From Blautia sp. (lineage in GTDB: Bacteria; Bacillota; Clostridia; Lachnospirales; Lachnospiraceae): a stretch of DNA of 37,675 nt. This document shows, piece by piece, positions 5,073 to 26,990 of the stretch. The translations under genes were made by a program, and so were the position numbers. The notes beneath the pieces are model-generated. The model saw nothing but the letters and a program-made list of their open reading frames with translations. It searched no databases and had not been told where the DNA came from. Where the stretch lies: contig JAFUCO010000054.1 of NCBI GenBank assembly GCA_017459635.1, forward strand, positions 1 through 37,675, given 5' to 3'. Numbering within the stretch: the first letter of the stretch is position 1; every line of letters starts with the position of its first letter.

Positions 5073-5249
5073 ATGCTCCTGCATCTGCATGTTATAATTC
5101 AAACATACCGGAATTGTGCCGGACTATGCGCCGGCTGTCCCGGCATTTTTTTCGCATCTCTGTCAACTGTAAAAAGCAGGCGCTTTGTGCCCGTTAATAT
5201 CTGAAAAACTTTGTATGATACGTCTGACCGGATAGACATAATATTTTCG

Positions 5250-6752: not shown

Positions 6753-6849
6753 TTTTCCATCCCCCAAATTCGGTTATTCTTGCAATTAAGCTCTGTCAGG
6801 AAAGCAATGAAAAATGCCGTGCATTCTTATTGCAGGTGAAGAGCGATCA

Positions 6850-8120: not shown

Positions 8121-9065
8121 TTACCAGTCGCCCTCGTCCATTGTTTGGTTATCATCAGTTCCGGAATTGTCTTCTGTCCCTGACTCACCGTCCGAATCGG
8201 CATCTGTACCTTCTCCCGGGGCGCTGTCTGTTTCTGAATCCGTATTTTCCCCGGAAGCCTTATATGAAGTGGCTGTGGCCTGCGGTTCGGTGTTGTACAT
8301 CGTCATTATCATATTTGCCGCCCACATGGGGTAGAATTCCTTCTGCAGATGAATGCCATCTTCATCCCACAGGTAAGAGTATTTTTCCGCTATCGAATCA
8401 TTGTTCACGAAAGGAATTCCGTTCTCCTGGCACATTTTTTCCACAGCTGCGCTGTACTCCGGTATCTCATGCCATTTTTCCGCTGTGGCAAAAGCCGGAT
8501 CCCGGGCGGGAAGAATAGAGTTTACATATACTGTGCAGTTCGGGAATTCTGCCTGCAGGCCGCGCACTACTTCAAGATACTCCGCCGCATATGGCTCCGG
8601 AGTATCCCAATGTCCGATAGACGTATCATTAAGGCCGAAACACAGAAAGATCGCTGTAGGATTAAGCGCTCTCAGCTGGTCCATATAATAGGCTATGTCT
8701 CTTATTGTCCAGCCGCCACCGGCGATGACCCGGCTTTCAGGCATAAAGCCGTAATAAGAAAAGCCGACGCCGCGTGAATCTCCCATCAGAACATAATCTG
8801 TAAACAGGCTCCAGACATCAATCTCGCCACTTTCAACCTTACGCATGGTCTCATCCTTCTCTGCCTGGATCTTTGCCTGACGCTGGGAGGCCAGAATATT
8901 CTCGACAGTCTGAACATCCTGCTCTTCAAGTGTCTTCAGATAATGGACACCGTCCGAAACCTTTTCAGTTGAGGAAGGAGTATTCCCGTGCACAAAAAAA
9001 AGTACCACTACGGCAATCAAAATAAAAGCCACAGCAGGCACAATTAAACGTTGCAACTTATCCAT
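8121..9065 (-). CDS. SGNH/GDSL-family hydrolase, membrane-anchored, acidic C-terminus
   Basis: A 314-residue protein with an N-terminal membrane anchor (LIVPAVAFILIAVVVLFFV) and an extracellular SGNH domain. Catalytic blocks are visible: MGDSRG (Ser about 97), FGLNDTS (Asn about 146) and WDEDGIHLQ (Asp about 236, His about 239). This is a complete Ser-Asp-His set, so it should be an active esterase or acyltransferase. The last 45 residues are an acidic Asp/Glu/Ser/Gly tail. The gene is first in the acylation operon with DUF4358, MBOAT and DHHW. I chose the second in-frame ATG (9065), 6 nt after GGGATGGGG; the ATG at 9077 would add four residues. It could remove or transfer O-acetyl groups on the exported polymer. 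Confidence 0.88.
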   Translation of the reverse strand: MDKLQRLIVPAVAFILIAVVVLFFVHGNTPSSTEKVSDGVHYLKTLEEQDVQTVENILASQRQAKIQAEKDETMRKVESGEIDVWSLFTDYVLMGDSRGVGFSYYGFMPESRVIAGGGWTIRDIAYYMDQLRALNPTAIFLCFGLNDTSIGHWDTPEPYAAEYLEVVRGLQAEFPNCTVYVNSILPARDPAFATAEKWHEIPEYSAAVEKMCQENGIPFVNNDSIAEKYSYLWDEDGIHLQKEFYPMWAANMIMTMYNTEPQATATSYKASGENTDSETDSAPGEGTDADSDGESGTEDNSGTDDNQTMDEGDW

Positions 9066-9107
9066 CTCTAACCCCATCCCCCAAATTATGTATACCAGTT
9101 AATACAT

Positions 9108-9223: not shown

Positions 9224-12200
9224 TTATTTAATGATCTTGTGTACCGCCTTGTAGGCAATCTTTTTCGCTTTTTGTTCGAGGCGAACGAAAGGATCTTTCT
9301 TTATATAATTCAGATCTTCTTTTTGTTTGTCGATCTTTTTCTGAAGTTCACGGATCCTGATGCCACGCTCCTGTTTTTCGCGGCGGAGTTCATGGATTTC
9401 CATGCCTCTGTCGTATTTTTCGCGGCGCAGCTGATGGATCTCAAGGCCTCGTTCACGTTTCGTTTCCCAGAGCTTTTGCCTTTCCCGTTTGAGTTTTTCT
9501 ATCTCTTTTTGAGACGCTATATCCTGTCTGTCAGAATTGTCTGCCCAGGAAGCTGTGTCAAGTCTGTAGAAGAGGTAATCATCTGCAGTTCCGCTCAGGA
9601 TCTGCTGAAGCTGTTCATATTCTCTTTCATCATTGAAATACAGTACGTCTCTGCCTGTGATCCCAAGATTATCAAGCCATTCCTCTTTCAGGATATTGTA
9701 AAGCCTGTAATAGGACTCGCCCTTTATCGTATTGAGGTTCCACAGTGTAAAGTGGAGTGCATAGTCCACAAAGTCTCTTTCGTACCTGTCGAAAAGGTCC
9801 CATTCAGTCAGCTGGTTTTTCAGGGCAATGAGAGCATCATAGAAGCATCTCCAGCTCATCTCTCTGCTGACCGAAAGGCTCTTTCCATCATCCGCCCGCC
9901 TGTGATGGGCAAGGATGGCTTCAACTATCGAAATTTTCTGAGCCTTGACAATAGCCGAAAAAACGAACAGCATGTCGTTGGTAGTTCTCTGCTCCTGGAA
10001 TGTCAGGTTGTTTTCTCTTATGAAGCCTGCTTTGAACAGCTTGTCCCATGGCCATCCTACAAATGCCCTGAAGATATCCCTCTTTATATCACTTCCTGCG
10101 AAAGGAGTTTCAACCGGAAGCAGTTCGTACTTGACAGTGAATCTGGCCGGCTGGTATGTCCTGCTCTCCATAAAATACTGGTCGCTGCGGAAGACTACAA
10201 TGTCACTGTCTTCCGTACGGGCTTTTTCATAAGCCCTGCGGAACATATCCGGATCGAAGAAATCATCGGCGTCCAGGAACATGAAGTAATCTCCTGTCGC
10301 ATACTTCATACCGGTGTTTCGGGCTGCACCGGCCCCGGCGTTCTCCTGATGGATAACACGGACACGGCTGTCCTTCTCCTCATATTCGCGGAGTATTTCA
10401 AGGGTCTCATCCGTAGAACCGTCATCAACACAGATCACCTCGGATCTGATCTCGTCTCTGACCAGTATTGAGTCAAGGCATTCTCTGATAAAGGACGCTG
10501 CATTGTATGCCGGGATGATCACCGAAATCCGGAGCTTATCATAAAATGCGTCCGGATCCTCCATTATCTCGTTCAGCATCAGCCAGAGCCTTGGCTCGAA
10601 GCAGCTTTCGTCCAGCTTGCCCTGAGCCATCGGTTCGCGAAACTCATCGTAGATGTGGTGCAGATAATCACGTTTCAGGCTTGTATCCAACCGATAATAG
10701 GTCATGCTGAAGCTGTTAAACTTTTTGAAATAAAAGATCTTTTCATATTTTTCAACCAGGTCATATTCTTTTGAGAGGAAGTCCCAGATAAACCTGTATT
10801 CCTCTGTATGAGCGTAGAACTTGCCCTTGCTGAACATGGACGCGTTGGGATTGTCCCTGCGGTACATGTACAACGCGCTGTCAAGAAACCATATCCTTTT
10901 AGCCCTGCAAAATGTCTGGAACCAGAACCCCAGATCCTGGTAAGATGCCCCCGGAGATTCATGATGGCGGATCTCCCATCTGTTCAGAAATTCCAGATTA
11001 TAGATGCCGCTCCAGGTATTCATGAGGAAGTAAAATACCTCTGTTTCCTCTGAAGGATCAATAACCCGGCCGTAATAGCTCTTATCACCGGAAAGATCAA
11101 ATCTTTTCTTGTTTACAGCACCATTCTCCATGATACCAAAGCGATAAAAATCAGCCTTTACAAGGTCGAGTTCATTCTCTGCCGCAACATCATACAGCTG
11201 CTCGTACATGGTAGAAGGCACAAAATCATCCGGTTCGAGGATGCCTAGATATTGTCCTCTGGCTGCATCGATCCCGATGTTCATTGAATGGCCGTACCCG
11301 GTATTTTTCTTATCAATGATGCGGATACGTTTGTCAATGCTTGCGTATTCCTTCAGTATAGTCATTGAAGTGTCATCAGACCCGTCATTTACGCAGATGA
11401 ATTCCATTTCCTTCAGAGTCTGCCTTGTCAGGCTCCACAGAGCCTGGTTTAAGTAATCCTCCTGGTTGTATACAGGTACCACAACTGATACTTTTGGATC
11501 TGCACACTCCTCATAGAAAACCTGCTCAGTCACTGTCTGCTGTTCTGACGGTTCTTCAGAAGCCGAAGCCACGGATTCCTTATTCTTGATTATCTTTTTC
11601 AGCCGGTTCTGGTATTTCACCATAAAGTGGTAAGGCTGGCTGTCAATGTAATCCTGCGTATGTTTTATTATCTGGTCGCCGCAGGTCTCATCTGTACTGA
11701 GACGTCCGCACCAGTACAGCAGGTCATCAAGCTCAACACACATGACCTTTTTAAAGATATCTGCGCTGATGCCCCGGGCCAGGAGCATGCTTTCTATTAT
11801 CTGCAAAGAGCTGAGCTGGCATTCAAAATGCATCGCGCGTTTGCCCACCAGCGAGGTCTCCATATTTACTCTGTGTACGACCACGGGATCCCTGGATGCC
11901 ATTATCCGTCCCGGAGTAGTTATAAGACTGATGAAGAAGGATCGGTCATTCACGCATATAAGATCGTTGAAGCTGAGATCATTTTCAATCAGGAAAGACC
12001 TTCTGTAAAGCCCTGACCATGGCACTGCGCACAGGTTGAATATCGGACTGTCATTCTCCAGAGGAAGAAGCCGAAGGAAATCACCATCCCTGAGCTTTTG
12101 AAGGGAATATCCGGAGTTAGGCACTGTCATTTTCAGAGTTTCATCGAGAGCTATCCCGCAGAACTTGAGACAGTCAAGGTCATGCTTTTTAACTTTATCA

Positions 12201-12514
12201 TAGATCGCCTCATAGGCATAAGGAGTTGCCAGATAGTCATCTGCGTCCATAAAATGTACGTATTCACCTTTTGCCAAAGCAAGGCCATTGTTCCTTGCAG
12301 GACCGGCATGCAGGTTTTCCTGTGTGAGCAGATGGATCCGCTCATCCTTTGACATGTAATCCTTTATGATCTGAGCCGAACTGTCTGTGGAACCATCATC
12401 CACGCAGATGACTTCTATCTCGGAAATCGTCTGCCCGGTAATACTGTCCAGAAGTTGTTTAAGATACTTTTCGGCATTATATACCGGGATGATTACTGAT
12501 ATTTTTAGTTCCAT
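9224..12514 (-). CDS. three-module family 2 glycosyltransferase with C-terminal coiled coil
   Basis: A 1096-residue cytoplasmic protein with three successive GT-A domains. Module 1 (from residue 3, ISVIIPVYNAEKYL, acidic motif FMDADDYL) is subclass A. Module 2 (from about 338, VSVVVPVYNQEDYL, acidic motif ILEPDDFV) is subclass B. Module 3 (from about 660, ISVIIPAYNAASFI, acidic motif FLDADDFF) is subclass C. Each keeps an N-terminal nucleotide-binding strand and an acidic metal-binding motif, so all three could be active. Residues about 1000-1075 are a charged coiled coil with repeats such as RGMEIHELRREK, ending in a basic helix. Homologous single modules occur elsewhere in the locus. GGGGAGG precedes the ATG. 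Donors, acceptors and linkages cannot be told from sequence. Confidence 0.93.
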   Translation of the reverse strand: MELKISVIIPVYNAEKYLKQLLDSITGQTISEIEVICVDDGSTDSSAQIIKDYMSKDERIHLLTQENLHAGPARNNGLALAKGEYVHFMDADDYLATPYAYEAIYDKVKKHDLDCLKFCGIALDETLKMTVPNSGYSLQKLRDGDFLRLLPLENDSPIFNLCAVPWSGLYRRSFLIENDLSFNDLICVNDRSFFISLITTPGRIMASRDPVVVHRVNMETSLVGKRAMHFECQLSSLQIIESMLLARGISADIFKKVMCVELDDLLYWCGRLSTDETCGDQIIKHTQDYIDSQPYHFMVKYQNRLKKIIKNKESVASASEEPSEQQTVTEQVFYEECADPKVSVVVPVYNQEDYLNQALWSLTRQTLKEMEFICVNDGSDDTSMTILKEYASIDKRIRIIDKKNTGYGHSMNIGIDAARGQYLGILEPDDFVPSTMYEQLYDVAAENELDLVKADFYRFGIMENGAVNKKRFDLSGDKSYYGRVIDPSEETEVFYFLMNTWSGIYNLEFLNRWEIRHHESPGASYQDLGFWFQTFCRAKRIWFLDSALYMYRRDNPNASMFSKGKFYAHTEEYRFIWDFLSKEYDLVEKYEKIFYFKKFNSFSMTYYRLDTSLKRDYLHHIYDEFREPMAQGKLDESCFEPRLWLMLNEIMEDPDAFYDKLRISVIIPAYNAASFIRECLDSILVRDEIRSEVICVDDGSTDETLEILREYEEKDSRVRVIHQENAGAGAARNTGMKYATGDYFMFLDADDFFDPDMFRRAYEKARTEDSDIVVFRSDQYFMESRTYQPARFTVKYELLPVETPFAGSDIKRDIFRAFVGWPWDKLFKAGFIRENNLTFQEQRTTNDMLFVFSAIVKAQKISIVEAILAHHRRADDGKSLSVSREMSWRCFYDALIALKNQLTEWDLFDRYERDFVDYALHFTLWNLNTIKGESYYRLYNILKEEWLDNLGITGRDVLYFNDEREYEQLQQILSGTADDYLFYRLDTASWADNSDRQDIASQKEIEKLKRERQKLWETKRERGLEIHQLRREKYDRGMEIHELRREKQERGIRIRELQKKIDKQKEDLNYIKKDPFVRLEQKAKKIAYKAVHKIIK

Positions 12515-12592
12515 TTTTTCCTCCCCTCAGCTTTTGTTATCCCATAGCTTTGTCATATTGCTTCTTTATGCATCCTGTTATCTGCTTTTATT

Positions 12593-12639
12593 GTATCTGT
12601 ACAGAACCTGAACAGATATGGGCTGTTCTGAACAGTTAC
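12593..12639. repeat. internally deleted copy C of the 133-bp multi-palindrome element
   Basis: Only the two outer palindromes of copies A and B remain: GTATCTGTACAGAACCTG at one end and GGGCTGTTCTGAACAGTTAC at the other, joined with about 85 bp missing. Its right end (GTTAC) overlaps the stop codon of the neighbouring GT2 gene at 12636-12638. Confidence 0.8.
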
Positions 12640-13592
12640 CTTTTATTCAGATATTCACAGTACTCGCTGTATTCTGCCTGGTCATAGAAGTATTCCCGGG
12701 ATTTTCCTGTTACTCCCAGCTCATCGAACCATTCTTCAAACAGCTTGTCAAATAGCTGCTGCTTTGTAGGTTCAGCGAGTGTTTTCAGATTCCATAATGA
12801 AAAATGGAGCGCATAGTTTATATAGTCACGTTCCAGCTCCCAGTATATATCTTCGTCCTCAAGCCTTTTGCGTATCGCCAGCAGGGCATCGTAGAAGCAT
12901 CCCCACGACTGTTCGCGGGTAACAGAAAGCGACTTGCCTGTCCCTCTTCTCTGATGGAGGAGCACACGCCTGTTAACAGCTATTTTTTCGGCTACAACAA
13001 GGGCGCTGAACACAAATAGAAGGTCATTGCTGGTACGCTGTTCCTGGAACCACAGGTTATGGGAAATAACAAAGTCTTTACGGTACATCTTGTCCCATGC
13101 CCAGCCGACGAAGGTCTTGAACACATTCCCGGTAAGCTGCCTGTACTTGAACGGCATATAGGGTGGGATATCCTCTGTCCTCATCACCCAGGGGTTGCGG
13201 ACATATTCCTTTGTATCCATATAGTACTGGTCGCAGCCGAAAACGATGAAGTCCGCCTTATAATGCACAATAGTCCTGTAAGCTTTTTCGAGCATTACCG
13301 GTTCAAAAAAGTCATCCGAATCAAGGAACAGCAGATATCTGCCCTTTGACTCGCGAAGTCCGTAGTTGCGGGCTGCACCTGCGCCTTTGTTCTCCTGATG
13401 CAGAAGGCGCACTCTTGAATCAGACGATACATACTCCTCAATTATCCGGGCCGAGCTGTCCGTTGAACCGTCATCTATGCACAGGATCTCAAAATCCCCG
13501 AATGTCTGACACAACAGGCTGTCCAGACAGTGCCGCAGATATTCTTCACTGTTGTAAACAGGAATGATCACAGATACTTTCGGTTTTTTCAT
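12636..13592 (-). CDS. family 2 glycosyltransferase, subclass C
   Basis: A 318-residue single GT-A domain (VSVIIPVYNSEEYL; CIDDGSTDSS; acidic motif FLDSDDFFEPVML). The second half has the subclass signature FVGWAWDKMYRKDF, then QEQRTSNDLLFVFSAL, then WGCFYDALLAI. These are also seen in module 3 of the 1096-residue protein and module 1 of the 642-residue protein. It starts 3 nt after the stop of the preceding gene, with GAGG inside that gene's last codons, so the two are translationally coupled. Its stop codon comes from the edge of repeat copy C. Sugar specificity is unknown. Confidence 0.92.
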   Translation of the reverse strand: MKKPKVSVIIPVYNSEEYLRHCLDSLLCQTFGDFEILCIDDGSTDSSARIIEEYVSSDSRVRLLHQENKGAGAARNYGLRESKGRYLLFLDSDDFFEPVMLEKAYRTIVHYKADFIVFGCDQYYMDTKEYVRNPWVMRTEDIPPYMPFKYRQLTGNVFKTFVGWAWDKMYRKDFVISHNLWFQEQRTSNDLLFVFSALVVAEKIAVNRRVLLHQRRGTGKSLSVTREQSWGCFYDALLAIRKRLEDEDIYWELERDYINYALHFSLWNLKTLAEPTKQQLFDKLFEEWFDELGVTGKSREYFYDQAEYSEYCEYLNKR

Positions 13593-13595
13593 GTT

Positions 13596-14654
13596 TTAAT
13601 TCCTCAGTGACAGAACCCGGAATACCATTCTCTTGGCCCATTCCGGAACGTAAGGTTTGACCAGGGCAAACACCTTTGCGGATTTGAGAGCCATCTCAAA
13701 GCCTCCGGCGCTCCGTATCATTGACTGAAGCTTCTTCCATTCCAGGTCGGTAAACGCCTCCCGGCTCAGCTCTCCTTTTGTCATGGCCCAGCTGTATTCC
13801 CTGCTCATTCTGTGCATGAATTCCTTTTTATATTTGTCGTCTATCCTCTCGTAGGTAAAGAAATATGAATGATATTTCACCCACCAGTAAAAGTATTTGA
13901 ACCGCTCCCAGACTTCCCGGTCTCTCATCAGCATATCGCGCAGGAAATCATACTCGATGTTCATCGCGTAGACCTTCCCTCTGTTCTTAACGGATGAATT
14001 GGGGTTATCCCGGCGGTTCATATAGTAGGCTTTGTCAATTATCATTCCTCTTCCTGCATAGGCAAAAGTCTGGAAATAAAAGCCATTGTCCTGGAAAGCC
14101 GCGCCCGGAGTCTCGTTATGGCGTATCTGGAATTCCTCCATCCATCTTCTCCGGTAAATGCCTGTCCAGGTGTTCATTTTATAGCGAAAAACCTCCGGAT
14201 CCTCCGCAGGACAGAACACTTTTCCATATCCCGTTTTTTCACTGTCGAGGCTGACATACTCTGTTTCCAGAGTGCCGTCCTCCGATGTTTTGAACCGGCA
14301 GAAGTCGGATTTTACGAAATCAAGATCGTTCTTTTCTGCCAGCTCGTACAGATCCTCATACATATGGGCATCGACATAGTCGTCCGGCTCAAGAATGCCT
14401 ATATATTCTCCTGCTGCCGCACTTATGCCCGTATTCATTGCCTTTCCATACCCGCCGTTCGGCTGGTCTATCACCCTGAAACGGCTGTCAGCGCATGCAT
14501 ATTCTTCGAGTATCACAGGTGAACCATCAGTTGAACCGTCGTTCACCAGAATGACCTCGATGTCACTCAGAGTCTGTTCTTTAAGGCTGTCAAGGGCCTG
14601 TCTTAAATAATTCTCCACATTGTATACCGGTACAATTATCGATACTTTGCACAT
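13596..14654 (-). CDS. family 2 glycosyltransferase, subclass B
   Basis: 352 residues. The GT-A domain begins VSIIVPVYNVENYLRQ, with VNDGSTDGS and the variant acidic motif ILEPDDYVDAHMYEDLY. Subclass B marks follow: NGGYGKAMNTGI, MNTWTGIYRR, RHNETPGAAFQDNGFYFQTF and YYMNRRDNPNSSV. The same set recurs in the gene at 20238-21404 and in module 2 of the triple protein. A basic C-terminal segment (WAKRMVFRVLSLRN) may bind the membrane. AGGAGG lies 6 nt before the ATG, 11 nt after the preceding stop. Confidence 0.92.
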   Translation of the reverse strand: MCKVSIIVPVYNVENYLRQALDSLKEQTLSDIEVILVNDGSTDGSPVILEEYACADSRFRVIDQPNGGYGKAMNTGISAAAGEYIGILEPDDYVDAHMYEDLYELAEKNDLDFVKSDFCRFKTSEDGTLETEYVSLDSEKTGYGKVFCPAEDPEVFRYKMNTWTGIYRRRWMEEFQIRHNETPGAAFQDNGFYFQTFAYAGRGMIIDKAYYMNRRDNPNSSVKNRGKVYAMNIEYDFLRDMLMRDREVWERFKYFYWWVKYHSYFFTYERIDDKYKKEFMHRMSREYSWAMTKGELSREAFTDLEWKKLQSMIRSAGGFEMALKSAKVFALVKPYVPEWAKRMVFRVLSLRN

Positions 14655-14665
14655 GTTTTTTCCTC

Positions 14666-15691
14666 CTACCGGTATACCAGTTTTCCCAGCGCCGAGGCCG
14701 GAAGGTACAGCGAAAAGCCGCTGCTTCTTAGAAGCTTAACGGCTTTGTTTATGTTGGCATTATATATGTCAGGATATCTGTTTTTCAGCATATCGTCGAA
14801 TTCCTTCATCCGCTTCCGGCACGATACGGACGGCTCCATGCAGAGCATTATGCGGTATTTGCCGGCAACGATACGGGCTATAAGGTTTTCAATATAAACC
14901 TTCTTTTCCGGTGTGCAGGGCACAGTTTTCCCAAGGCTCCTGTAAAACCTGAAAAGCGAGCGCAGCACCGTGTTTATGCTTTTCTCATTGCTCTGCATCT
15001 TCTCACGGCTCATGCTCTGCCCTGCAGCTCCAATACGGTACATATAAACAAAATCCGGGATGAAGGCTATCGTCCTGACATACGGTATCGGGTAAAGAAT
15101 ATACTCCGTATCCACATAATAGCATTTTTCGTCAACGCGAATTCCGTGTTCCTTAAGTATTGAAGTACGAATGGTAAGGTTATGCATTTTTATGTACAGC
15201 CGGTCTGCCACGAGGTCAAAACCGTAAACCTCTTCCCACCGTACTTCCGGAAACGGGACTGAAAACTCCGCCCTTTTGTGGAAATCATTCGGGCATATGC
15301 CCTCCTTTTCGTAAGCCCACAAAAATCCGGACCATACGATATCCGCATCTGTCTTTTTCAGGAATCCCACCAGATTGCAAAGCGCGTTTTTGTCGGCCCA
15401 GTCGTCCGCGTCCATGACTTTAAAGTACTTTCCCGCGGCAATGTCTATGCCGCTGTTGATGCCCGAGCCGTGTCCTCCGTTCGCTTTATGCATGACACGG
15501 ACGGTTCCGGGATACTTGCTGCTGTATTCTTCTGCTATATCGCCTGTACAGTCCGTCGAACCGTCATTAACTATGATCACTTCAAGATCTTCCAGCAGGT
15601 CAGGTACACAGAGCGAAGAGAGACATGTTCTTAAATATTTTTCCGCATTATAAGAGGGAATAACCACCGATAGTGTTTTTTCTTTTTTCAT
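14666..15691 (-). CDS. family 2 glycosyltransferase beside the ABC exporter
   Basis: 341 residues. The GT-A fold starts LSVVIPSYNAEKYL, with VNDGSTDCTGD, GGHGSGINSGIDIAAGKYF and the acidic motif MDADDWAD. It belongs to none of subclasses A, B or C; the second half (YGFDLVADRLYIKMHNLTI and YYVDTEYILYPIPYV) is distinct. Its ATG overlaps the TGA of the exporter ATPase by one base (TGATG), implying translational coupling. This suggests it acts at a step close to export, for example priming or a main-chain linkage, but that is inference. Confidence 0.9.
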   Translation of the reverse strand: MKKEKTLSVVIPSYNAEKYLRTCLSSLCVPDLLEDLEVIIVNDGSTDCTGDIAEEYSSKYPGTVRVMHKANGGHGSGINSGIDIAAGKYFKVMDADDWADKNALCNLVGFLKKTDADIVWSGFLWAYEKEGICPNDFHKRAEFSVPFPEVRWEEVYGFDLVADRLYIKMHNLTIRTSILKEHGIRVDEKCYYVDTEYILYPIPYVRTIAFIPDFVYMYRIGAAGQSMSREKMQSNEKSINTVLRSLFRFYRSLGKTVPCTPEKKVYIENLIARIVAGKYRIMLCMEPSVSCRKRMKEFDDMLKNRYPDIYNANINKAVKLLRSSGFSLYLPASALGKLVYR

Positions 15692-16425
15692 CAGCTCATA
15701 AAATCTTCGTACAGAGGCAGCACCTGTTCGGGTGTGCCGATCATACGGATCTCTCCATCATGGAGCCACATCACACGCGTGCAGAGCTCCTGAAGCGTCT
15801 CTGAAACGTGTGAAACGATCACCACGGTCCTGTTATTGTCACTGATCAGTTCCTTCATTTTGTTGTAGCTTTTCTTCTTAAATTTGGAGTCGCCTACGCT
15901 CAGCACCTCGTCGATCAGCATTATGTCCGATTCAAGTATCGCGGTAATTGAAAACGCGAGCTTTGAATGCATACCGCTTGAGTAAGTACGGACCGGCATG
16001 TCGATAAACTCTCCAAGCTCGGCAAAGGCGATTATCTCGTCCATTTTTGCGCGCACCTGTTCCTCAGAGAAGCCAAGAAGCATTCCCGAAAGCACAATGT
16101 TTTCTCTTCCGGTCAGTTCTCTCTGAAAACCGACACCGATAGAAAGCAGCGAGACCGAGTTTCCGTGCAGGTCGATCGACCCCTCATCTGCCGAAAAGAT
16201 TCCCGCAAGGGCGCGCAGCATTGTCGATTTGCCGCTTCCGTTCTTGCCGACTATTCCAAGGATCTCACCTTTTTTTACCGAAAAGGATACACCCCTCACT
16301 GCTTCGAACACAATCTCATTTGCCTTTTTGAAAGTAAAAAAGCTCCTTCTTATTGAAAACATGTTGAGGCATTTGTAACGTATCCTCAGGTCTTTTACAT
16401 CTAATGCTATTTTATTATCTTCCAT
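15691..16425 (-). CDS. ABC transporter ATP-binding protein, TagH/Wzt/KpsT-like polysaccharide exporter
   Basis: 244 residues from MEDNKIALDVKDL. Walker A is GIVGKNGSGKST (about 60), the signature is YSSGMHSKLAFS, Walker B is IMLIDEVLSVGD, and the switch histidine is in VIVSHVSE. The stretch DIMLIDEVLSVGD with ELTGRENI is characteristic of teichoic-acid and O-antigen exporters. It stops after the ATPase core and lacks the extra C-terminal domain of long TagH and of carbohydrate-binding Wzt, so recognition of a modified chain end by this subunit is unlikely. A longer frame extends upstream to 16572 but overlaps the permease. The start lies 5 nt after the permease stop. Confidence 0.92.
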   Translation of the reverse strand: MEDNKIALDVKDLRIRYKCLNMFSIRRSFFTFKKANEIVFEAVRGVSFSVKKGEILGIVGKNGSGKSTMLRALAGIFSADEGSIDLHGNSVSLLSIGVGFQRELTGRENIVLSGMLLGFSEEQVRAKMDEIIAFAELGEFIDMPVRTYSSGMHSKLAFSITAILESDIMLIDEVLSVGDSKFKKKSYNKMKELISDNNRTVVIVSHVSETLQELCTRVMWLHDGEIRMIGTPEQVLPLYEDFMS

Positions 16426-16430
16426 CTTTA

Positions 16431-17216
16431 TCACATGACCTTTACGTAGCTGTTCTCGTAACTGTAGATAAGCCTTATCCCAATTGTACACAGGATAAAT
16501 GAGATGAGCCCCCATACGGCCAGCATCTTTCTGTACGGAAGTGTACAGTAAAGCATACAGTTTCTGGTACACTCAATAAGCATTGACATAGGATTGCAGT
16601 ACAGCAGCAGACTCCTGAAAGGTTCTTCCAGCCTGTCTCCGATCGAGTAGAAAATACCGGAAAGGTAGAAAAGCATGCGGAGAATAACCATCATCACGTT
16701 GTGCAGGTCATCCACAAATACTCCGAAATGAAGGACAATGCAGCTGAGTCCGAAGGTAAGAAGTACCAGCACCACAAGAATAGGAAGAACATATATGATC
16801 CTCCATGTGACCGGCACCCTGTACAGTACCATCATAATCCCCACCAGACCGAAGGAAATGAGCATCTTGAAGCCGTTCTCCAGCATCTTTTGAAGTATAA
16901 GGATATATTTTGGAATATATACCTTTGAGACAATGCTGCTGTTCTGTCTTACCATCTTTACGCTTCCCTGAACATTTTTGTTGAAGAAGTTCCACAGGGT
17001 AAGTCCTATGAATACAAAAACCGGAAAGTACTCGATCTTGCTGCGGAAAACTATAACTGCTATGAAGGTATAAACCATCATGAAAAGCAATGGATCCAGA
17101 ACCCACCAGAGCCAGTTAAGATAGGAGCTGGCAACCTCCGATTTCAGATCGGATTTGGCGGAGTATTTTGCATATGAGAAGTATTTCTTCATATCATTGA
17201 TAAAGCGTGTCATCAT
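16431..17216 (-). CDS. ABC-2 permease of a polysaccharide or teichoic acid exporter (TagG/Wzm-like)
   Basis: 261 residues with six predicted membrane segments, beginning with the amphipathic KSEVASSYLNWLWWVLDPLLFM typical of TagG/Wzm (shown here as two pieces, KSEVASSYLNW and LWWVLDPLLFM). It forms the pore through which a lipid-linked polymer leaves the cytoplasm, as a dimer with two ATPase subunits encoded next door. AAGGA lies about 8 nt before tandem ATG codons at 17216 and 17213. It is 14 nt after the stop of the 996-residue protein. Confidence 0.93.
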   Translation of the reverse strand: MMTRFINDMKKYFSYAKYSAKSDLKSEVASSYLNWLWWVLDPLLFMMVYTFIAVIVFRSKIEYFPVFVFIGLTLWNFFNKNVQGSVKMVRQNSSIVSKVYIPKYILILQKMLENGFKMLISFGLVGIMMVLYRVPVTWRIIYVLPILVVLVLLTFGLSCIVLHFGVFVDDLHNVMMVILRMLFYLSGIFYSIGDRLEEPFRSLLLYCNPMSMLIECTRNCMLYCTLPYRKMLAVWGLISFILCTIGIRLIYSYENSYVKVM

Positions 17217-17230
17217 AGTTTTTTTCCTTT

Positions 17231-20221
17231 TTACATCAGCCGTATTTTATGAAGTCCTTTGTACGCAATTGATGAGTGCACAGTCCGGAGATTTTCTTCC
17301 AGTTCCGCATTTTGCTTTTCCAGAGTGGATATTTTTTGCATAAGCTCTTCTGTTTGCTTCTTAAAAGCGTCTCTGTCCTTAACGAGTTCTGATCTCTCTT
17401 TCCGGTATTCTTCCTCACGGGCAGCTGTCTCAGCCTTTAAGCTGTTCAGTTCTTTCTCCAGCCGGTTCTTGGTCCTGGAAGTGCCGGCCCTGGCTTTGTC
17501 GGATTCTTCCTTTGCTTTTGAGAGTTCTTTGTTGAGGGCAGACAGTTTGTCATTTTCTGCCATAAACGCCCGGACTTCATTATCCTTCTTCAGAATGCGG
17601 TTCAACAGGGCAACCCTCTCATTTTCAAGGCGGGTCACCCGAACGGCGCGGTTGTTTACAATAAGCGACCTGAAGATCAGCTGATCCTCCGGATCCATTG
17701 ACTTGTATCCGTTCCTCTCGCTCCATTTGGAAAGATTTGCGTAGGTGTATTTGACACTATTAAGTGTTTTTTCTGTCTGGATCAGAGCGATATGCCTGAC
17801 TTCATCTGAAAAACCGCTTTCGCATGTGATCCTGTACATTTCCATAAAGCAGCGGAAATAGCCCTCAACATTCCGGAATGTCACATTCGATGTCATTATT
17901 GAACCGCCGGAAAGCCTCCGCTGGTGATATACCTCAGGCTCATAAGCAGCCCTTCCGGCCCCCAGCAGCAGACGGAACATGAACAGGTTATCCTCATGGA
18001 GGATACCCTCATAAAACGGTTTTTCCAGCTTTTTAATACAGGAAAGCCGTGAAAAACAGGCAGCTGTATTGACTATATACTCATTATTGCCTGTCATCAG
18101 TCCCATAAGCTCTGCTCCTGTATATACATCAGGATAGCTGTGACAACGTTTGTAGGACTTACGGAACTTCTCAAGAGTGGATTCGAACGAACTGTCATCC
18201 TCCTCTTCGGTGATATAAGGATGCATATTGATGAGACATACGTCCAGTTCGTCCTCTTCCATCCGCCTTACGAGTTTTTCGATATGATGCGGTGTAATGG
18301 AATCGTCACTGTCAAGATAGCTTATATATTTCCCGGATGCATGGTCTGTCCCGTTGTTACGGCTTCTTGAAAGGCCTCCGTTTTTCTGGGTTATTATGTG
18401 AATTCTGGCATCTCTCCCGGCATATTCTGCAAGTATGCGGGGGCTCTCATCTGTTGAGCCGTCATCGACGCATATGATCTCCAGGTTTTTGTAAGTCTGG
18501 GCAAGAAGACTGTCCAGGCATTCTCCCAGATATTTTTCCTCATTGTAGACCGGCACCACTACTGTGACGAGAGGTTCTGTCTCTTCAGTTTTCCTTTTTT
18601 GGGCAGCTGCTTCCTGCATCATTGCTGCGGCAGACTCAAGAGTCTCATCATATCCGGCATCCTTCGGGAAGTGCATGGAAGCCCCGGCATTCTTCCTTAC
18701 CTTTTCAAGCCTTTCACGGACTTCTGCGATGCTGTCATTCTCATGCACAAGTACGCATGGAACTCCTGCCGCGTTCGAAACAGTAAATGCTTCAGGGTCA
18801 TCTGTCAGTACTGCTTCCCTTTCCCGCAGCTTCGACAGCTCATATTCAATAATCATACCGCGGTTAGTACGATTAACAGGTTTCGATGGAACAAGGCTAC
18901 CGACACTGACCGCAACCTGAGCACCATATGCCGCCCTGTAGAGCATGCTTTCCTCCGGCGTTTCAGGAACTGCGTCATCTTTAAAAAGCAGCAGGATACC
19001 TGCGCTATCCGGTGCCACTGTTTCAGTCCGTCTGTTAAAAAGCATAATGTCCTGCACGATGTATGTTCTATTTTCATTTCCGGACATCCTGATCGTCATA
19101 CGACCGTTTTCTGTGTCCGGCCTGAAGCATATAAATGGATTATCCGGAAAATCGTGACAAATCTGATCCTCTCCCTGTACTGCAAGAATGTCACACGGGC
19201 GGATCATAAGCATTCCTTTGTCCTTTTTATCCGAAAACTCTTCACGGCTCAGTTCCGTTATCCTTATCGAAGGAGAAACTGCTTTCAGGAAACTTGTGAT
19301 GCCTTCTGTCCGCATAGCGCCTGCAACAGTGTCCTCCGCCGGCATACCTGTGAGATAAATGCGGATACCGGTGTCCCGGCCTTCTGCGCCTGCTTTCTCT
19401 TCTTCAGTTCCTTTCAGGTCTGATATTCCTTTTTCACAGTGGATCACCTGAGTGCCGCAGATTTTTATAAGGCTCTCTGCAATATCCGCCAGATCATCCT
19501 CCTCGCATGGGAACATAAGATACGCCGCCCTGCTCTTAAATGTACATGGAGCCGCTGCGGCTGCTTTGGCAATACAATCCCTGAGCCTGCAAAAATCACG
19601 TTTTTCATAGTTTCCGGCTTCTTTCAACAATTCATCATAATCGAAGATACCGGTCTGATCCAAAGTACATGTAACAAGGCTGCTTCCCACAGATGAAGCA
19701 GCCTCAATAAGGCGTGCGCTTTTTTCCTTTGCTTTGACCCCGCCCCACTTACTCTCTGGTTCTTCCATGGCAAAGAGCACATTCGAATAAGAGCATGTCT
19801 CCTTAAGCACTTCATCATAGCCCGGTCTGTCTTCATATAGCAGGACAGCTCCGGAAAGTTCCTTATTTGCGTCTCTGTTATCATTACTGTGACGGCAGTT
19901 CACAAGGCATTCCTTTAAGAAGCCCGGATACCTGTTCTCAAAGGTTTCTCTGACTTCTTCAAGTGATGAAAGGAAATCCGGATCACCGAATTCCGTAATT
20001 ATCTCGGCCCCGCACAGCCAGGCTGCAGGAAAAATGCGCCCGATGAGCGGCACCATCAATATCTCGAACGGCAGCTCTTCCAGAGCAAAGGAATACTCTG
20101 CGGAGTAAGAATCTGTCTTAAGAAATTTTTCCAGGGGGCCGCAGACTTTGAAGGAGTATGTGATTTTCCTGTTGTGAACCTGCGGAGTCTGTAATGTTAA
20201 AATGTTTTTTGATTCCGACAT
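17231..20221 (-). CDS. large fusion: unknown N-terminal region, family 2 glycosyltransferase, long coiled coil
   Basis: A 996-residue protein. Residues 1-545 are not a family I can name with confidence. The part EELPFEILMVPLIGRIFPAAWL and the following GAVLLYEDRPGYDEV region (ending WGGVKAKEKSARLIEAA) faintly recall the N-terminal layout of MurL-like or ATP-pyrophosphatase-like proteins, without the SGG loop; this is a weak impression. Residues about 550-800 are a GT-A domain (VTVVVPVYNEEKYLGECL, VDDGSTDES, YLDSDDSI). Residues about 860-985 are a coiled coil rich in Lys/Glu/Leu, ending IAYKGLHKIRLM. No strong ribosome binding site precedes the ATG (AAAGG is 14 nt away). It lies directly before the exporter genes, so a scaffold or length-control role is possible but unproven. 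Confidence 0.85.
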   Translation of the reverse strand: MSESKNILTLQTPQVHNRKITYSFKVCGPLEKFLKTDSYSAEYSFALEELPFEILMVPLIGRIFPAAWLCGAEIITEFGDPDFLSSLEEVRETFENRYPGFLKECLVNCRHSNDNRDANKELSGAVLLYEDRPGYDEVLKETCSYSNVLFAMEEPESKWGGVKAKEKSARLIEAASSVGSSLVTCTLDQTGIFDYDELLKEAGNYEKRDFCRLRDCIAKAAAAAPCTFKSRAAYLMFPCEEDDLADIAESLIKICGTQVIHCEKGISDLKGTEEEKAGAEGRDTGIRIYLTGMPAEDTVAGAMRTEGITSFLKAVSPSIRITELSREEFSDKKDKGMLMIRPCDILAVQGEDQICHDFPDNPFICFRPDTENGRMTIRMSGNENRTYIVQDIMLFNRRTETVAPDSAGILLLFKDDAVPETPEESMLYRAAYGAQVAVSVGSLVPSKPVNRTNRGMIIEYELSKLREREAVLTDDPEAFTVSNAAGVPCVLVHENDSIAEVRERLEKVRKNAGASMHFPKDAGYDETLESAAAMMQEAAAQKRKTEETEPLVTVVVPVYNEEKYLGECLDSLLAQTYKNLEIICVDDGSTDESPRILAEYAGRDARIHIITQKNGGLSRSRNNGTDHASGKYISYLDSDDSITPHHIEKLVRRMEEDELDVCLINMHPYITEEEDDSSFESTLEKFRKSYKRCHSYPDVYTGAELMGLMTGNNEYIVNTAACFSRLSCIKKLEKPFYEGILHEDNLFMFRLLLGAGRAAYEPEVYHQRRLSGGSIMTSNVTFRNVEGYFRCFMEMYRITCESGFSDEVRHIALIQTEKTLNSVKYTYANLSKWSERNGYKSMDPEDQLIFRSLIVNNRAVRVTRLENERVALLNRILKKDNEVRAFMAENDKLSALNKELSKAKEESDKARAGTSRTKNRLEKELNSLKAETAAREEEYRKERSELVKDRDAFKKQTEELMQKISTLEKQNAELEENLRTVHSSIAYKGLHKIRLM

Positions 20222-20237
20222 GACTGTTTAGTGACCT

Positions 20238-21404
20238 TTACCTCCTGTTTCTAAGGACTTTTTTCACGGTCTCTTTCATGTAACGTGGAACTGCTGTCAG
20301 GGTGAAGCCCAGCTTGTATGAATTTGAATTCAGTATATCATTCAGCCTGCGGCTGTCGCGGCGAAGCTTGTCTATTTCAGCGCTGGAGGCTGAAGATTTG
20401 TTCTTGGAGGATTTTCCGCCTGACTCCTCCCCCATCTTCATAATTGCAAAGGAATCAGGATCCTTGAGGATCATCTGCATTCTCTCCCACTGGAAATCCT
20501 CATAATCCTTACGGCGCACAAGCCCGTCGTTTTTAGCAGCGTTAAATTCCCTGGAAGCATTGCGGCAGTATTCCTTTTTGTACTCCGGAGCAATGCGGTT
20601 CAGAGTCATAATGGTGTTGGTAAACCGTTTCTTCCAGTACATATATTTGAAGCGGTTCCAGGTGTCCGGATGCTCCATAATAATGTCACGGATATAATCA
20701 TATTCGATATTTGCCGCGTATACCTTTCCCGGATCCTTGACAGAAGAATTAGGGTTGTCCCGGCGGTTGCGGTAATATGCCTTATCAATTATCATGGCTC
20801 TCCGGCCAAAGGCGAAGGTCTGGAAGAAAAATCCATTGTCCTGGAAGCTGGCTCCGGGAGTTTCATTATGGCGGATCCCGAACTCATCAAGGAAGCTCTT
20901 CCTGTAAATACCGCACCAGGTATTTACCACATAGTTCATTGCATAGGGTGTTTCGCTCGGGTTGAAGACCTTATTATAGTCATCCGGATCCTTGGAAAGA
21001 GCAAAATACTTGAAATTTACATCTCCGTTATCGCTTGTCACGAAGCGGTAGAAATCAGATTTTACAAAGTCAAGGTCATTTTCCTTTGCGACCTTATAAA
21101 GATCCTCGTACATCTCAAGCCCCACGTAATCATCAGGCTCGACAATTCCTATGTATTCCCCTGTGGCCCTGTCCATACCGGCGTTCATCGCTTTTCCATA
21201 GCCGCCGTTCGGCTGGTCCACGATAATTATCCGCTCGTCCCTTTCCGCATAGCGTTTCAGGATTTCAAGCGAGGAATCCGTTGACCCGTCATTGACACAC
21301 ACTATCTCAATATCGGAAAGAGTCTGTCTCACAACACTCTCAAGGCATTCCTCAAGATATTCCTCAACATTATATGTAGGTATGATAATTGATACTTTTG
21401 CCAT
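20238..21404 (-). CDS. family 2 glycosyltransferase, subclass B, with basic C-terminal tail
   Basis: 388 residues from MAKVSIIIPTYNVEEYL; GGAGA lies 5 nt before this ATG, so the 20 upstream in-frame residues are left out. Acidic motif VEPDDYVGLEMYEDLY and the subclass B marks NGGYGKAMNAGM, VNTWCGIYRK, RHNETPGASFQDNGFFFQTF and YYRNRRDNPNSSV are present. It is very similar to the gene at 13596-14654. After the catalytic part come a Ser/Lys linker, a short coiled coil and SNSYKLGFTLTAVPRYMK, a tail common in membrane-associated GT2 enzymes. The two B enzymes may make the same or related linkages. Confidence 0.92.
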   Translation of the reverse strand: MAKVSIIIPTYNVEEYLEECLESVVRQTLSDIEIVCVNDGSTDSSLEILKRYAERDERIIIVDQPNGGYGKAMNAGMDRATGEYIGIVEPDDYVGLEMYEDLYKVAKENDLDFVKSDFYRFVTSDNGDVNFKYFALSKDPDDYNKVFNPSETPYAMNYVVNTWCGIYRKSFLDEFGIRHNETPGASFQDNGFFFQTFAFGRRAMIIDKAYYRNRRDNPNSSVKDPGKVYAANIEYDYIRDIIMEHPDTWNRFKYMYWKKRFTNTIMTLNRIAPEYKKEYCRNASREFNAAKNDGLVRRKDYEDFQWERMQMILKDPDSFAIMKMGEESGGKSSKNKSSASSAEIDKLRRDSRRLNDILNSNSYKLGFTLTAVPRYMKETVKKVLRNRR

Positions 21405-21433
21405 ATCTGTCTCCAATCTGTTCACTTGTAAAT

Positions 21434-21459
21434 TAAGAAACTGCTGATGCAGTTTCTTA
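21434..21459. other. 11-bp perfect hairpin in the leader of the subclass B gene
   Basis: TAAGAAACTGC and GCAGTTTCTTA pair perfectly around TGAT, 30 bp before the GT2 start codon. There is no U-run after it on the minus strand. It could be a processing site or a weak attenuator in the polycistronic message. Confidence 0.45.
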
Positions 21460-21497
21460 TCCAATGCCTTTTGGGAAGCCTAAGGAGAGCATCTCAA

Positions 21498-21515
21498 AAC
21501 CCACTTAAGCGGGTT
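21498..21515 (-). terminator. weak terminator-like hairpin after the C-A glycosyltransferase
   Basis: On the minus strand AACCCGCTTAAGTGGGTT is followed by TT and GAG, ten bases after the stop at 21525. The stem is only about 5-6 bp, so partial readthrough into the rest of the locus is expected. Confidence 0.35.
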
Positions 21516-21524
21516 CGCGCTATC

Positions 21525-23453
21525 CTATACACCTGTCAGTTCGCGGTATTTGAGCCACTGGCTGTCGGCTTCCCGTTTTTCAAACAGGCTAAGATCCACA
21601 TATTTTACGGTAAAATCATGCAGATCCTTTTTAAGCTGTTCCGTCACTGCATTTTTATCCAGGATCTTGCGGTACCAGTTGATGAGGTCGTACATTTCCG
21701 CGTCCAGTATACGGAAACGTACATTTTCGCTGACATTGTTGTCATCACAAATCTTCATCATTATCTTATACGATTCAAACTGGCAGTCAAAATGCTCAGC
21801 GCGTTTATCAACCAGGGAACCGCTGACATTTGTACGGTGGCGCACTATATCGTGCCGGGTCAGCATCATGCGCTGTCCCTTTACACAGGTCTCTACAAAG
21901 AATGAACGGTCGTTGATGCAGAACAGATGATTAAACCTGATATTATTCTCAAGCAGGAAGGTCCGTTTGTATAGCGCGTTCCATGGTACCAGGCTCATCC
22001 CGGTCAGGAATTTTGTCGGTGAACGGTGGAAATCAAGAAGCTTTTCATCATACCCGTGCTCAAGATTTTTCATTGCATATCGCGGATTATCCACTTCTTT
22101 TCCGTTCTGATCGTCAAAGGCTGCAGCTGTTGTCTTGATAAAATCCAGATCGTTATCCATGGCGATCCTGTATATTTTTTCATATGAATCCGGGACTACG
22201 TAATCATCAGAATCAAGAAAGTGTATGTAGTTACCTCTGGCGGCTTCTATTCCACGGTTCCTGGATGCTCCGGCATAAAGATTCGTGCTGTTTTTAAGTA
22301 TATGGACATTAGGATATTTCGCTGCATATCTGCGCAGGATACGAAGTGTGTCATCCGTGGAGCAGTCATCAACACAGATCACCTCGAGTCCGATATTCTG
22401 CTGCTTAAGTATGCTGTGAAGCGCCTGCTTAATGTATTTTTCCGCATTATGGATCGGAATGACCACGGATATCTTGATCAGGTAGTCCTCCGAGCTTCTC
22501 TGCATTATCTCCTGATACTGGCTGTACTCTTTTTCATCATAGAAATATTCCCGGTCATGAGAAGTGATCCCCAGATCCTCAAACCATTCTTCTTTTAGCT
22601 TGTTATAGAGCACATGATAGGTATCACCTGTGATAGTATTAAGATTCCACAGGCTGAAATGAAGAGCATAATTGACAAAATCTTTTTCCAGTTCTTCATA
22701 GCGCCCGATCCTCACAAGAAAATCCCGGAGCGCCGTGAGCGCATCGTAGAAACAAAACCAGGATTTTTCACGCGTATTTGAGAGCGAGTCATTATTATTA
22801 CGTCTCTGATGAGCCAGAACATCCTCAAAATATGATATCCTCTTTGCAAGGACCACTGCACTGAAAACGAACAGCATGTCGTTGCTTGTCCTCTGCTCCT
22901 GGAATTTCAGCTTGTTCCTGCGGACAAAATCCGCGTCATAAAGCTTATCCCAGGCCCAGCCTACGAAGGCCCTGAACACGTTGTTTGTAATCGTACGGCA
23001 TGAGAACGGGGTGTATGGCGGAAGATTCGCTGTTTTCAAGGTATAAGCGGCCTTCTTGAACTTCCCGGTATCCTCCATGTACTGATCACACCGGAATACT
23101 ACGAAATCCGCCTGATCCTCCCTGATCTTCTCAACCGCTTTTTCAAGCATATCAGGCTCAAAAAAATCATCAGAATCCAGGAATGACAGATACCTGCCCA
23201 CGGCGTGCTTAAGTCCGGTATTCCTGGCGCTTCCTGCTCCGCCGTTTTTCTGGCGCACAACATGGACACGGGGATCCTTGTCAGCATATTCTTTAAGTAT
23301 AATTACAGAATCATCCTCGGATCCGTCATCCACGCAGATGATCTCTATATTTTTAAGTGTCTGGTTGATCACACTGTCCAGGCACTGCCTTAGATGGTCA
23401 TGCCCGTTATACACCGGCATGATTACAGATACGACTGGTTTCACAGAGGTCAT
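21525..23453 (-). CDS. two-module family 2 glycosyltransferase (subclass C then A)
   Basis: 642 residues with two GT-A modules. Module 1 (from residue 7, VSVIMPVYNGHDHL; FLDSDDFFEPDMLEKA; FVGWAWDKLYDADF; QEQRTSNDMLFVFSAV) is subclass C. Module 2 (from about 324, ISVVIPIHNAEKYI; FLDSDDYV; VPWNALYKRTFLLENNI; CINDRSFF; SLVDKRAEHFDCQ) is subclass A. It therefore carries two of the three modules found in the 1096-residue protein, in a different order. It is the first gene of the locus, with GGAG 8 nt before the ATG and a promoter-like site about 90 bp upstream. Bifunctional polymerising activity is possible but cannot be shown here. Confidence 0.93.
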   Translation of the reverse strand: MTSVKPVVSVIMPVYNGHDHLRQCLDSVINQTLKNIEIICVDDGSEDDSVIILKEYADKDPRVHVVRQKNGGAGSARNTGLKHAVGRYLSFLDSDDFFEPDMLEKAVEKIREDQADFVVFRCDQYMEDTGKFKKAAYTLKTANLPPYTPFSCRTITNNVFRAFVGWAWDKLYDADFVRRNKLKFQEQRTSNDMLFVFSAVVLAKRISYFEDVLAHQRRNNNDSLSNTREKSWFCFYDALTALRDFLVRIGRYEELEKDFVNYALHFSLWNLNTITGDTYHVLYNKLKEEWFEDLGITSHDREYFYDEKEYSQYQEIMQRSSEDYLIKISVVIPIHNAEKYIKQALHSILKQQNIGLEVICVDDCSTDDTLRILRRYAAKYPNVHILKNSTNLYAGASRNRGIEAARGNYIHFLDSDDYVVPDSYEKIYRIAMDNDLDFIKTTAAAFDDQNGKEVDNPRYAMKNLEHGYDEKLLDFHRSPTKFLTGMSLVPWNALYKRTFLLENNIRFNHLFCINDRSFFVETCVKGQRMMLTRHDIVRHRTNVSGSLVDKRAEHFDCQFESYKIMMKICDDNNVSENVRFRILDAEMYDLINWYRKILDKNAVTEQLKKDLHDFTVKYVDLSLFEKREADSQWLKYRELTGV

Positions 23454-26890: not shown

Positions 26891-26990
26891 CTGCTGCTTT
26901 TCTTTCTCAGCTGCCGATTTTCTTTCTCAGCTGCTGCTTTTCCTTCTCAGCTGCCGATTTTCTTTCTCAGCTGCTGCTTTTCCTTCTCGA
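26891..26990. repeat. five tandem 20-bp repeats at the psuK 3' end
   Basis: Units start at 26891, 26911, 26931, 26951 and 26971 and alternate between CTGCTGCTTTTC(T/C)TTCTCAG and CTGCCGATTTTCTTTCTCAG, a 40-bp higher-order unit. The array overlaps the last 15 codons of psuK, whose stop at 26947 falls inside it, and continues beyond. Because 20 is not a multiple of 3, copy changes would alter the protein's end. Confidence 0.9.

Follow-up and report, generated by a model that had tools for sequence, protein, structure and literature searches.

Why do the same few glycosyltransferase modules occur alone, in pairs and in threes within a single bacterial locus, and what might they build together? 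The question is raised by contig JAFUCO010000054.1 of a Blautia sp. assembly (GCA_017459635.1; 2.67 Mb in 109 contigs, completeness 66.8%), the entire 37,675 bases of which constitute the window analyzed here. On its minus strand, a gene run from 23453 to 3438, treated as one operon and presumably transcribed as a single unit, contains ten glycosyltransferase family 2 (GT2) modules within 9224-23453: three of subclass B, three of C, two of A, and one each of two other types, D and E. Sequence comparison across genomes leads us to place slightly better than even confidence in the view that this run is an ATP-binding cassette (ABC)-transporter-dependent glycan assembly operon of Blautia-like Lachnospiraceae, built on recurring, fusible B:C pairs with A as third partner, and that A, B and C are three old GT2 subfamilies of the GT-A type. 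The seven GT2 proteins of the run are:

21525..23453, minus strand: C-A two-module GT2 protein (C3, amino acids 1-322; A2, amino acids 323-642)
20238..21404, minus strand: B3, single-module GT2 of the ExDD/QD type with an S.SYKLG..L..P.R piece in its tail; it follows C-A and is assigned as the partner of C3
17231..20221, minus strand: X-E protein, with 540 N-terminal amino acids of unknown family, GT2 module E at about amino acids 545-860 and a charged segment at amino acids 864-982
14666..15691, minus strand: D, single GT2 module placed outside A/B/C by Pfam, identities and tree
13596..14654, minus strand: B2, single-module GT2 adjoining C2
12636..13592, minus strand: C2, single-module GT2 adjoining B2
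9224..12514, minus strand: A-B-C three-module GT2 protein (A1, amino acids 1-335; B1, 336-655; C1, 656-985) with a coiled-coil-like tail of 14-residue repeats

The five proteins made of A, B and C modules have open frames at these coordinates, and Pfam delimits three, one, one, one and two GT2 stretches in those at 9224, 12636, 13596, 20238 and 21525, respectively; for the 20238 gene a TTG start lies further upstream, the ATG at 21404 being the likelier one. All seven GT2 proteins match PF00535, the nucleotide-binding half, with 110.9 to 360.8 bits at a cut-off of 23.3. A first-pass annotation of this DNA had listed the A, B and C modules, leaving out D and the E module in the C-terminal half of the 17231-20221 protein, and had proposed that at least three GT2 subclasses recur across one-, two- and three-module proteins. 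For comparison, one scan of species genomes returned 306 B-related stretches, of which 78 loci, with titles nearly all from Bacillota, were kept; best named matches to the B-module alignment were Blautia and other Lachnospiraceae assemblies. The viral-contig loci L115-L158, as well as L035, were left out of the analysis, and L030 and L033 stand outside the scans. The main set comprises 82 loci, that is 85 minus the duplicates L039, L056 and L043, which are left out of the module tree and of the pairing, A-neighbor, fusion and Wzm/Wzt counts; near-identical loci such as L071/L072 are retained. Distance comparisons of B modules and their C partners, and neighbor counts of sugar genes, additionally exclude 12 rows (L199, L200, L202 and L218-L226).

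The module tree, built from 125 modules sampled from 382 (non-window modules shorter than 250 amino acids left out), separates modules by subclass and not by protein, so that the proposal of three subclasses holds. A occupies one side of a branch (17 rows, SH-aLRT 99), as does B (31 rows, support 100), whereas C groups with weaker relatives, designated c, and two others (54 rows: 34 C, 18 c, 2 other; support 98); D and E likewise each occupy one branch side, with supports for A, B, D and E of 99-100. The A, B and C clades each hold modules from different proteins, class membership being assigned by score thresholds of our choosing. Pairwise identities of the window modules are 45-56% for B-B, 46-56% for C-C and 38% for A-A, compared with 26-35% across the three. 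An alignment mixing A-B-C proteins with single modules put most singles on the C position and was not used. Motifs quoted in the first-pass annotation are present in the window proteins and throughout the family: NDRSF[FY] occurs in 16/17 A modules and GW.WDK in 78/79 C modules. The motif triads read DD.S, DxDD and ND in A, mostly NDGS, ExDD and QD in B, and mostly DDGS, DxDD and ND in C, with DxDD retained in 17/17 A and 79/79 C modules. Ordinary GT2-type enzymes carry a Glu before the presumed catalytic Asp, and the last triad position reads ED in several other GT2 modules of the same proteins; A and C have Asn, and B has Gln, at the position of that Glu.

The acidic motif of B had been described as EPDD in all B modules, and the first-pass annotation had suggested that it may mark a distinct donor. 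Glu is nearly always present (ExDD in 96/97 modules), the proline is not: EPDD is found in 91/97. These counts are biased, since the retrieval of most B loci relied on two patterns, one containing EPDD; in a family sample assembled by protein similarity (L199-L215), 20/21 B or b modules have the Glu and only 9 have EPDD. The hallmark of B is ExDD plus QD, with proline optional. EPDD represents Glu in place of the first Asp of DxDD with the last two Asp retained, a variant of the motif and not its absence. Modules lacking the Glu are otherwise degenerate too (FPDD in B3 of L038, from genome RUG14852; NSSD in L213; FPDD in B3 of L029, which lies just below the B threshold, is classed '.' and stands outside the 97). 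Among 167 other GT2 modules, Glu occupies this place in two, 17 being unreadable by the simple pattern used. The B profile matches solved glycosyltransferase proteins, 3bcv (1e-45, positions 2-216), 8bz4 (2-299) and 6h1j (1-301), its EPDD aligning with the DSDD of 3bcv; these matches predict a GT-A fold for B.

The main pattern of these loci is the B:C pair, defined as a C or c module fused to B or encoded in the next same-strand GT2 gene within 300 bases. Such a neighbor stands beside 78 of the 97 B modules; 1000 within-locus label shuffles averaged 50 and never exceeded 62. A direct pair exists in 75/81 loci containing B. Six of the 19 unpaired B modules, window B3 included, show C-A followed by B, or nearly so. 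Distances among B modules correlate with those among their C partners (r 0.63 for 75 pairs; permuted maximum 0.26). At genome level, 298 other family genomes contain B in 14 cases, C in 13 and both in 8, against an expected 0.61 (P 2.5e-9, uncorrected for kinship). The operon itself has three pairs, C3 with B3, B2 with C2 and the fused B1-C1, plus the two A modules.

Both the order and the fusion state of the pair vary. Forty-nine of the 75 pairs are separate genes in the order B-C and 16 in the order C-B, while seven are fused as B-C and three as C-B; on a tree restricted to B modules that have a C partner (74 modules), fusion state changes at least 5 times and order at least 6 times. B and C seem to have been fused into larger proteins on several separate occasions. 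The occurrence of the same modules in different orders, as A-B-C, C-A and singles in the window, extends to other loci with varied fusions and orders: the 82 loci encode 39 multi-module GT2 proteins, of types c-. (9), C-A (6), A-c (3), C-c-B-c (2), A-B-C (2), C-B (2), c-B (2), B-C (2) and 11 others. For the 17 A modules, the upstream GT2 module is C in 12 cases and the downstream one is B in 10, at any distance and counting the degenerate C3 and B3 modules described below; C proper is never found downstream of A, nor B proper upstream of it.

How did the copies arise? The first-pass annotation had suggested duplication with fusion or fission inside the locus, a scenario in which the copies would jointly polymerize one repeat unit. 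The run's three B, three C and two A modules are suggestive in this respect, and the order C, A, B ... B, C, A, B, C could represent tandem A-B-C repeats. Every A, B and C module of the window, however, is nearest to, or groups with, modules of other genomes: the former holds for A1, B1, C1 and C3, the latter, in the tree, for A2, B2, B3 and C2. B1 shares 76% identity with its counterparts in genomes G003 and G065, compared with 45-46% with B2 and B3; C3 is 75% identical to a module in L065, and B2 69% to one in L037. Since the closest relatives reside in other genomes, recent duplication within this locus is rejected as their source and largely refuted; a very old duplication before the family spread may have occurred. 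The local-duplication model is very improbable in our estimation, although the fusion of the same parts in different orders, here and elsewhere, stands.

Genomic placement of the A-B-C gene also bears on this scenario. The A-B-C order is conserved in 3/63 other genomes of the genus (G003, G065 and G043; search E up to 1e-90), and an x-B-C version with a degenerate first module occurs outside the genus, in G178. The B modules of the five proteins concerned group together as a clade of 5 with support 100. In G003 the gene is preceded by genes for a metallophosphatase and a Bmp-domain protein, a different chromosomal context from that of the window. Comparison with that locus (L028) identifies the matching site in the source genome on contig C80 (L238, G000:C80:1-9000), where the metallophosphatase and Bmp genes are followed by a Cys/Met pyridoxal phosphate enzyme and no A-B-C. 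Because contexts differ and the matching home site lacks the gene, its sequence surroundings indicate that A-B-C has changed place as a unit, in either direction. The spread of the modules is patchy: of 299 family genomes including the source, 15 contain B and 14 contain C; on plasmids, B was found on one Collinsella replicon only (search E up to 1e-30).

Two relatives of the operon reveal joint decay of one pair. In G003 (L029, 11726-14507) and RUG14852 (L038, 2225-5015), the same gene run is present with the donor-site motifs of both C3 and B3 lost. In C3, DDGS has become CEDL or CEDF, DSDD has become NPED and ND has become QD, and the C-terminal part is missing; in B3, NDGS has become YCSR or FGGE, EPDD has become FPDD and QD has become RS or RD. 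The frames remain open. A2, fused to the decayed C3, retains DDCS, DSDD and ND, and in both genomes B2 retains ExDD and C2 DxDD. Ratios of nonsynonymous to synonymous substitution rates (dN/dS) between the two genomes, obtained by a simple counting method, are 0.29 for C3 and 0.18 for B3, the latter being rough because dS is about 1, compared with 0.10 for A2, 0.13 for X-E and 0.11 for D. Such joint decay fits a coupled pair under relaxed but continuing constraint, in which catalytic activity was presumably lost. Further GT2 modules without motifs occur in multi-module proteins, as first module in L203 (4959-8231), as B in L213 (4923-7139), and as second modules in L081 (1317-3809, a c-. protein) and L036 (11820-14039, an A-. 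protein). One explanation would be a B:C heteromer that can do without the catalytic activity of one partner, with one module serving mainly to position the acceptor or as a scaffold. Open frames under purifying selection in the degenerate C3 and B3, and the motif-less modules in these other fused proteins, are in its favor; nearly all B and C modules nevertheless retain their motifs, the dN/dS estimate for B3 is imprecise, and degenerate modules may be heading for loss. We regard this heteromer as improbable.

Between and behind the GT2 genes, the run encodes export and modification functions:

16431..17216, minus strand: Wzm-type ABC-2 permease (Pfam above cut-off; NCBIfam match below its cut-off)
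15691..16425, minus strand: Wzt-type ABC ATPase (Pfam above cut-off; NCBIfam matches below theirs)
8121..9077, minus strand: GDSL/SGNH hydrolase
6850..7992, minus strand: DUF4358 protein
5400..6767, minus strand: MBOAT O-acyltransferase
3438..5102, minus strand: DHHW/AlgX-like protein

From 23453 downward the order is C-A, B, X-E, Wzm, Wzt, D, B, C, A-B-C, GDSL hydrolase, DUF4358, MBOAT and DHHW/AlgX-like, so that Wzm/Wzt, acylation and GT2 genes share one gene run. The Wzt frame extends to 16572, and its start at 16425 was chosen from the sequence. DHHW/AlgX-like proteins are the usual MBOAT partners in polysaccharide O-acylation. Given the transporter and acylation genes alongside, the predicted product is most likely an exported, acylated surface glycan. 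Repeats of 27 bp occur in the DHHW and DUF4358 genes (3655-3767 and 7764-7856). Elsewhere in the window, a 31-bp tandem repeat of 7.3 copies lies at 52-277, between the contig end and a major facilitator superfamily gene, and a 20/40-bp repeat at the end of a PfkB gene (26891-26988).

Two coil-like elements merit attention. The charged segment of X-E, 119 amino acids without Pro, is likely a coiled coil, and X-E is a candidate scaffold or ruler; in four X-E orthologs the segment measures 119, 52, 129 and 136 residues (bounds chosen by us). Relatives of the whole protein occur in G003, L037 and L038, the N-terminal part being much shorter in L029 (G003) and L038, and partial matches to the N-terminus were found in 2/298 other sampled family genomes. 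No terminator is recognized in X-E because a Pfam search of its N-terminal 540 amino acids at E up to 1 and a comparison with PDB sequences gave no match. Separately, C-terminal coiled-coil-like tails of GT2 proteins contain 14-residue (42-bp) tandem repeats, in the window at 9360-9439 and in L031 at 10884-11038; GT2 proteins of L047, L051, L061, L064, L070, L087 and L096 have the same tail type. The repeat units are of the types RG.EI..LRREK or TYREKSEINRKLQI, and copy number differs between related proteins. We consider such tails candidate tunable rulers or scaffolds. A bolder and rather doubtful proposal is that B and C are an obligate couple with a partly non-catalytic, structural function, and that with repeat tails as slippage-tunable rulers the length and composition of the glycan could be retuned. 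If this were true, a pair could lose its active sites together yet stay under selection, and retuning would proceed via changes in fusion state, in the number of repeats and in the set of live pairs.

In the mechanism that we propose, each of A, B and C would probably add one kind of linkage. B and C would form a coupled pair handling consecutive steps in the growth of a single chain, with A acting between them, in the order C, then A, then B. Whether modules are fused or separate would matter little because they would act as a complex, which would have allowed fusions and orders to change repeatedly, and the A-B-C gene would serve as a transferable cassette. X-E may scaffold the complex at the membrane via its coil. 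The glycan would be exported by Wzm/Wzt and acylated by MBOAT, DHHW and GDSL proteins.

Several observations weigh against this mechanism. Direct C pairs are absent from 6/81 B loci of the main set, and in the family sample C stands beside close B in 5/5 loci and beside divergent B in 2/12, so pairing characterizes one section of the B family; the loci are, moreover, related, and counts are not independent. Fewer fusion changes are required when only well-supported branches are considered, and L213, L111 and L055, all three fused, sit on long branches. The joint decay counts as a single event, shared by two sister genomes, and the last two Asp of the motif persist in the decayed B3. Wzm/Wzt genes occur in the fetched stretch of 33/81 B loci (24/53 among loci of at least 18 kb), so the pair is not tied to Wzm/Wzt export, and the A-B-C genes of G003, G065 and G043 show no Wzm/Wzt in their fetched stretches. 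This last finding, together with the ten GT modules, which exceed the needs of a simple repeat, agrees with a set of non-processive, single-use transferases: two sets would build a linker or side chain, and A-B-C would be a stand-alone trisaccharide synthase for another glycan that joined the operon. GT2 enzymes that add a single residue are common. Against this reading, the repeated B:C pairing and the co-occurrence point to a coupled step, even if two single additions in a row would fit as well, and we judge single-use transferases a serious if unlikely alternative to coupled pairs.

Donor sugars were approached via neighboring genes. Where a uridine diphosphate (UDP)-galactopyranose mutase gene was found, it lay directly beside B in 17/32 cases (GT2-label shuffles as high in 35/1000), and a UDP-glucose dehydrogenase gene in 15/34 (as high in 39/1000). 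Among 120 sampled neighbors of 414, the commonest family was UDP-glucose/guanosine diphosphate (GDP)-mannose dehydrogenase with 13, galactopyranose mutase counting 6; no rhamnose-synthesis families were among the 25 families shown of 100 in this sample, which is weak evidence against a rhamnose donor. A galactofuranosyl- or glucuronosyltransferase role for B, or for B and C, is compatible with these adjacencies and with the presence of both gene families elsewhere in the source genome. Yet neither gene occurs in the fetched stretch of 40/96 B loci, and C is enriched neither beside the mutase (4/32, shuffle mean 8.0) nor beside the dehydrogenase. A genome-level link between B and mutase was set aside as uninformative, the mutase being present in 273/299 family genomes. 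The galactofuranosyltransferases GlfT2 and PamC require DXD plus DD motifs, according to the accessible part of the source (PMC12269835); B departs from this set with ExDD and QD, and A and C with DxDD and ND. We hold such donors unlikely for these modules.

How does the locus compare with described systems? The accessible part of a study of Klebsiella pneumoniae O-antigens (O4, O7, O12, and O3/E. coli O9) describes an ABC transporter, a coiled-coil protein acting as chain-length ruler and glycosyltransferase modules distributed over single- and multi-module proteins (PMC11231755). The window resembles this arrangement in its ABC transporter genes alongside glycosyltransferases, in modules variably split over proteins and in a protein with a long coil-like segment; it differs in its Gram-positive host, other GT2 subfamilies, three B:C pairs in one run and the lack of a recognized terminator domain. 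Chondroitin synthase, which alternates two known donors and makes its polymer alone, has two GT modules per chain, both matched by the B profile (2z86/2z87), whereas those of the window comprise between one and three modules, from other subfamilies. GlfT2 and PamC share membership of GT2, and a mutase gene is found in 32/96 B loci, but the ExDD and QD of B set it apart, and the Pfam matches of the A, B and C proteins include no N-terminal domain of GlfT2. The WsaE/WsaF system for S-layer glycans of Geobacillus, with rhamnan enzymes, includes a multi-domain glycosyltransferase in an ABC-transporter-dependent Gram-positive pathway. The earlier impression that no described system has exactly this set needs qualification: relatives of B are widespread, and the modular principle is on record for the Klebsiella O-antigens, as far as the accessible text goes (PMC11231755). 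Literature searches on Blautia capsule clusters, GT2 pseudo-enzymes and GT2 module shuffling returned nothing on point, which is not proof that none is in print. Modular assembly by glycosyltransferases is already known, and the fusible B:C pair is a variant of it for which our literature searches met no description.

Surface glycans of gut Lachnospiraceae, such as the glucorhamnans of Ruminococcus gnavus, act on host immune cells, as stated in the accessible part of the source (PMC12413058), and we found few assigned assembly enzymes for glycans of this kind. Close B and C modules in paired form, with fused, split, relocated and degenerate versions, offer a handle for assigning linkages, and the same natural series a means to test why glycosyltransferases get fused at all. 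The joint decay of two partners, finally, represents a natural experiment on the structural roles that such modules may have.

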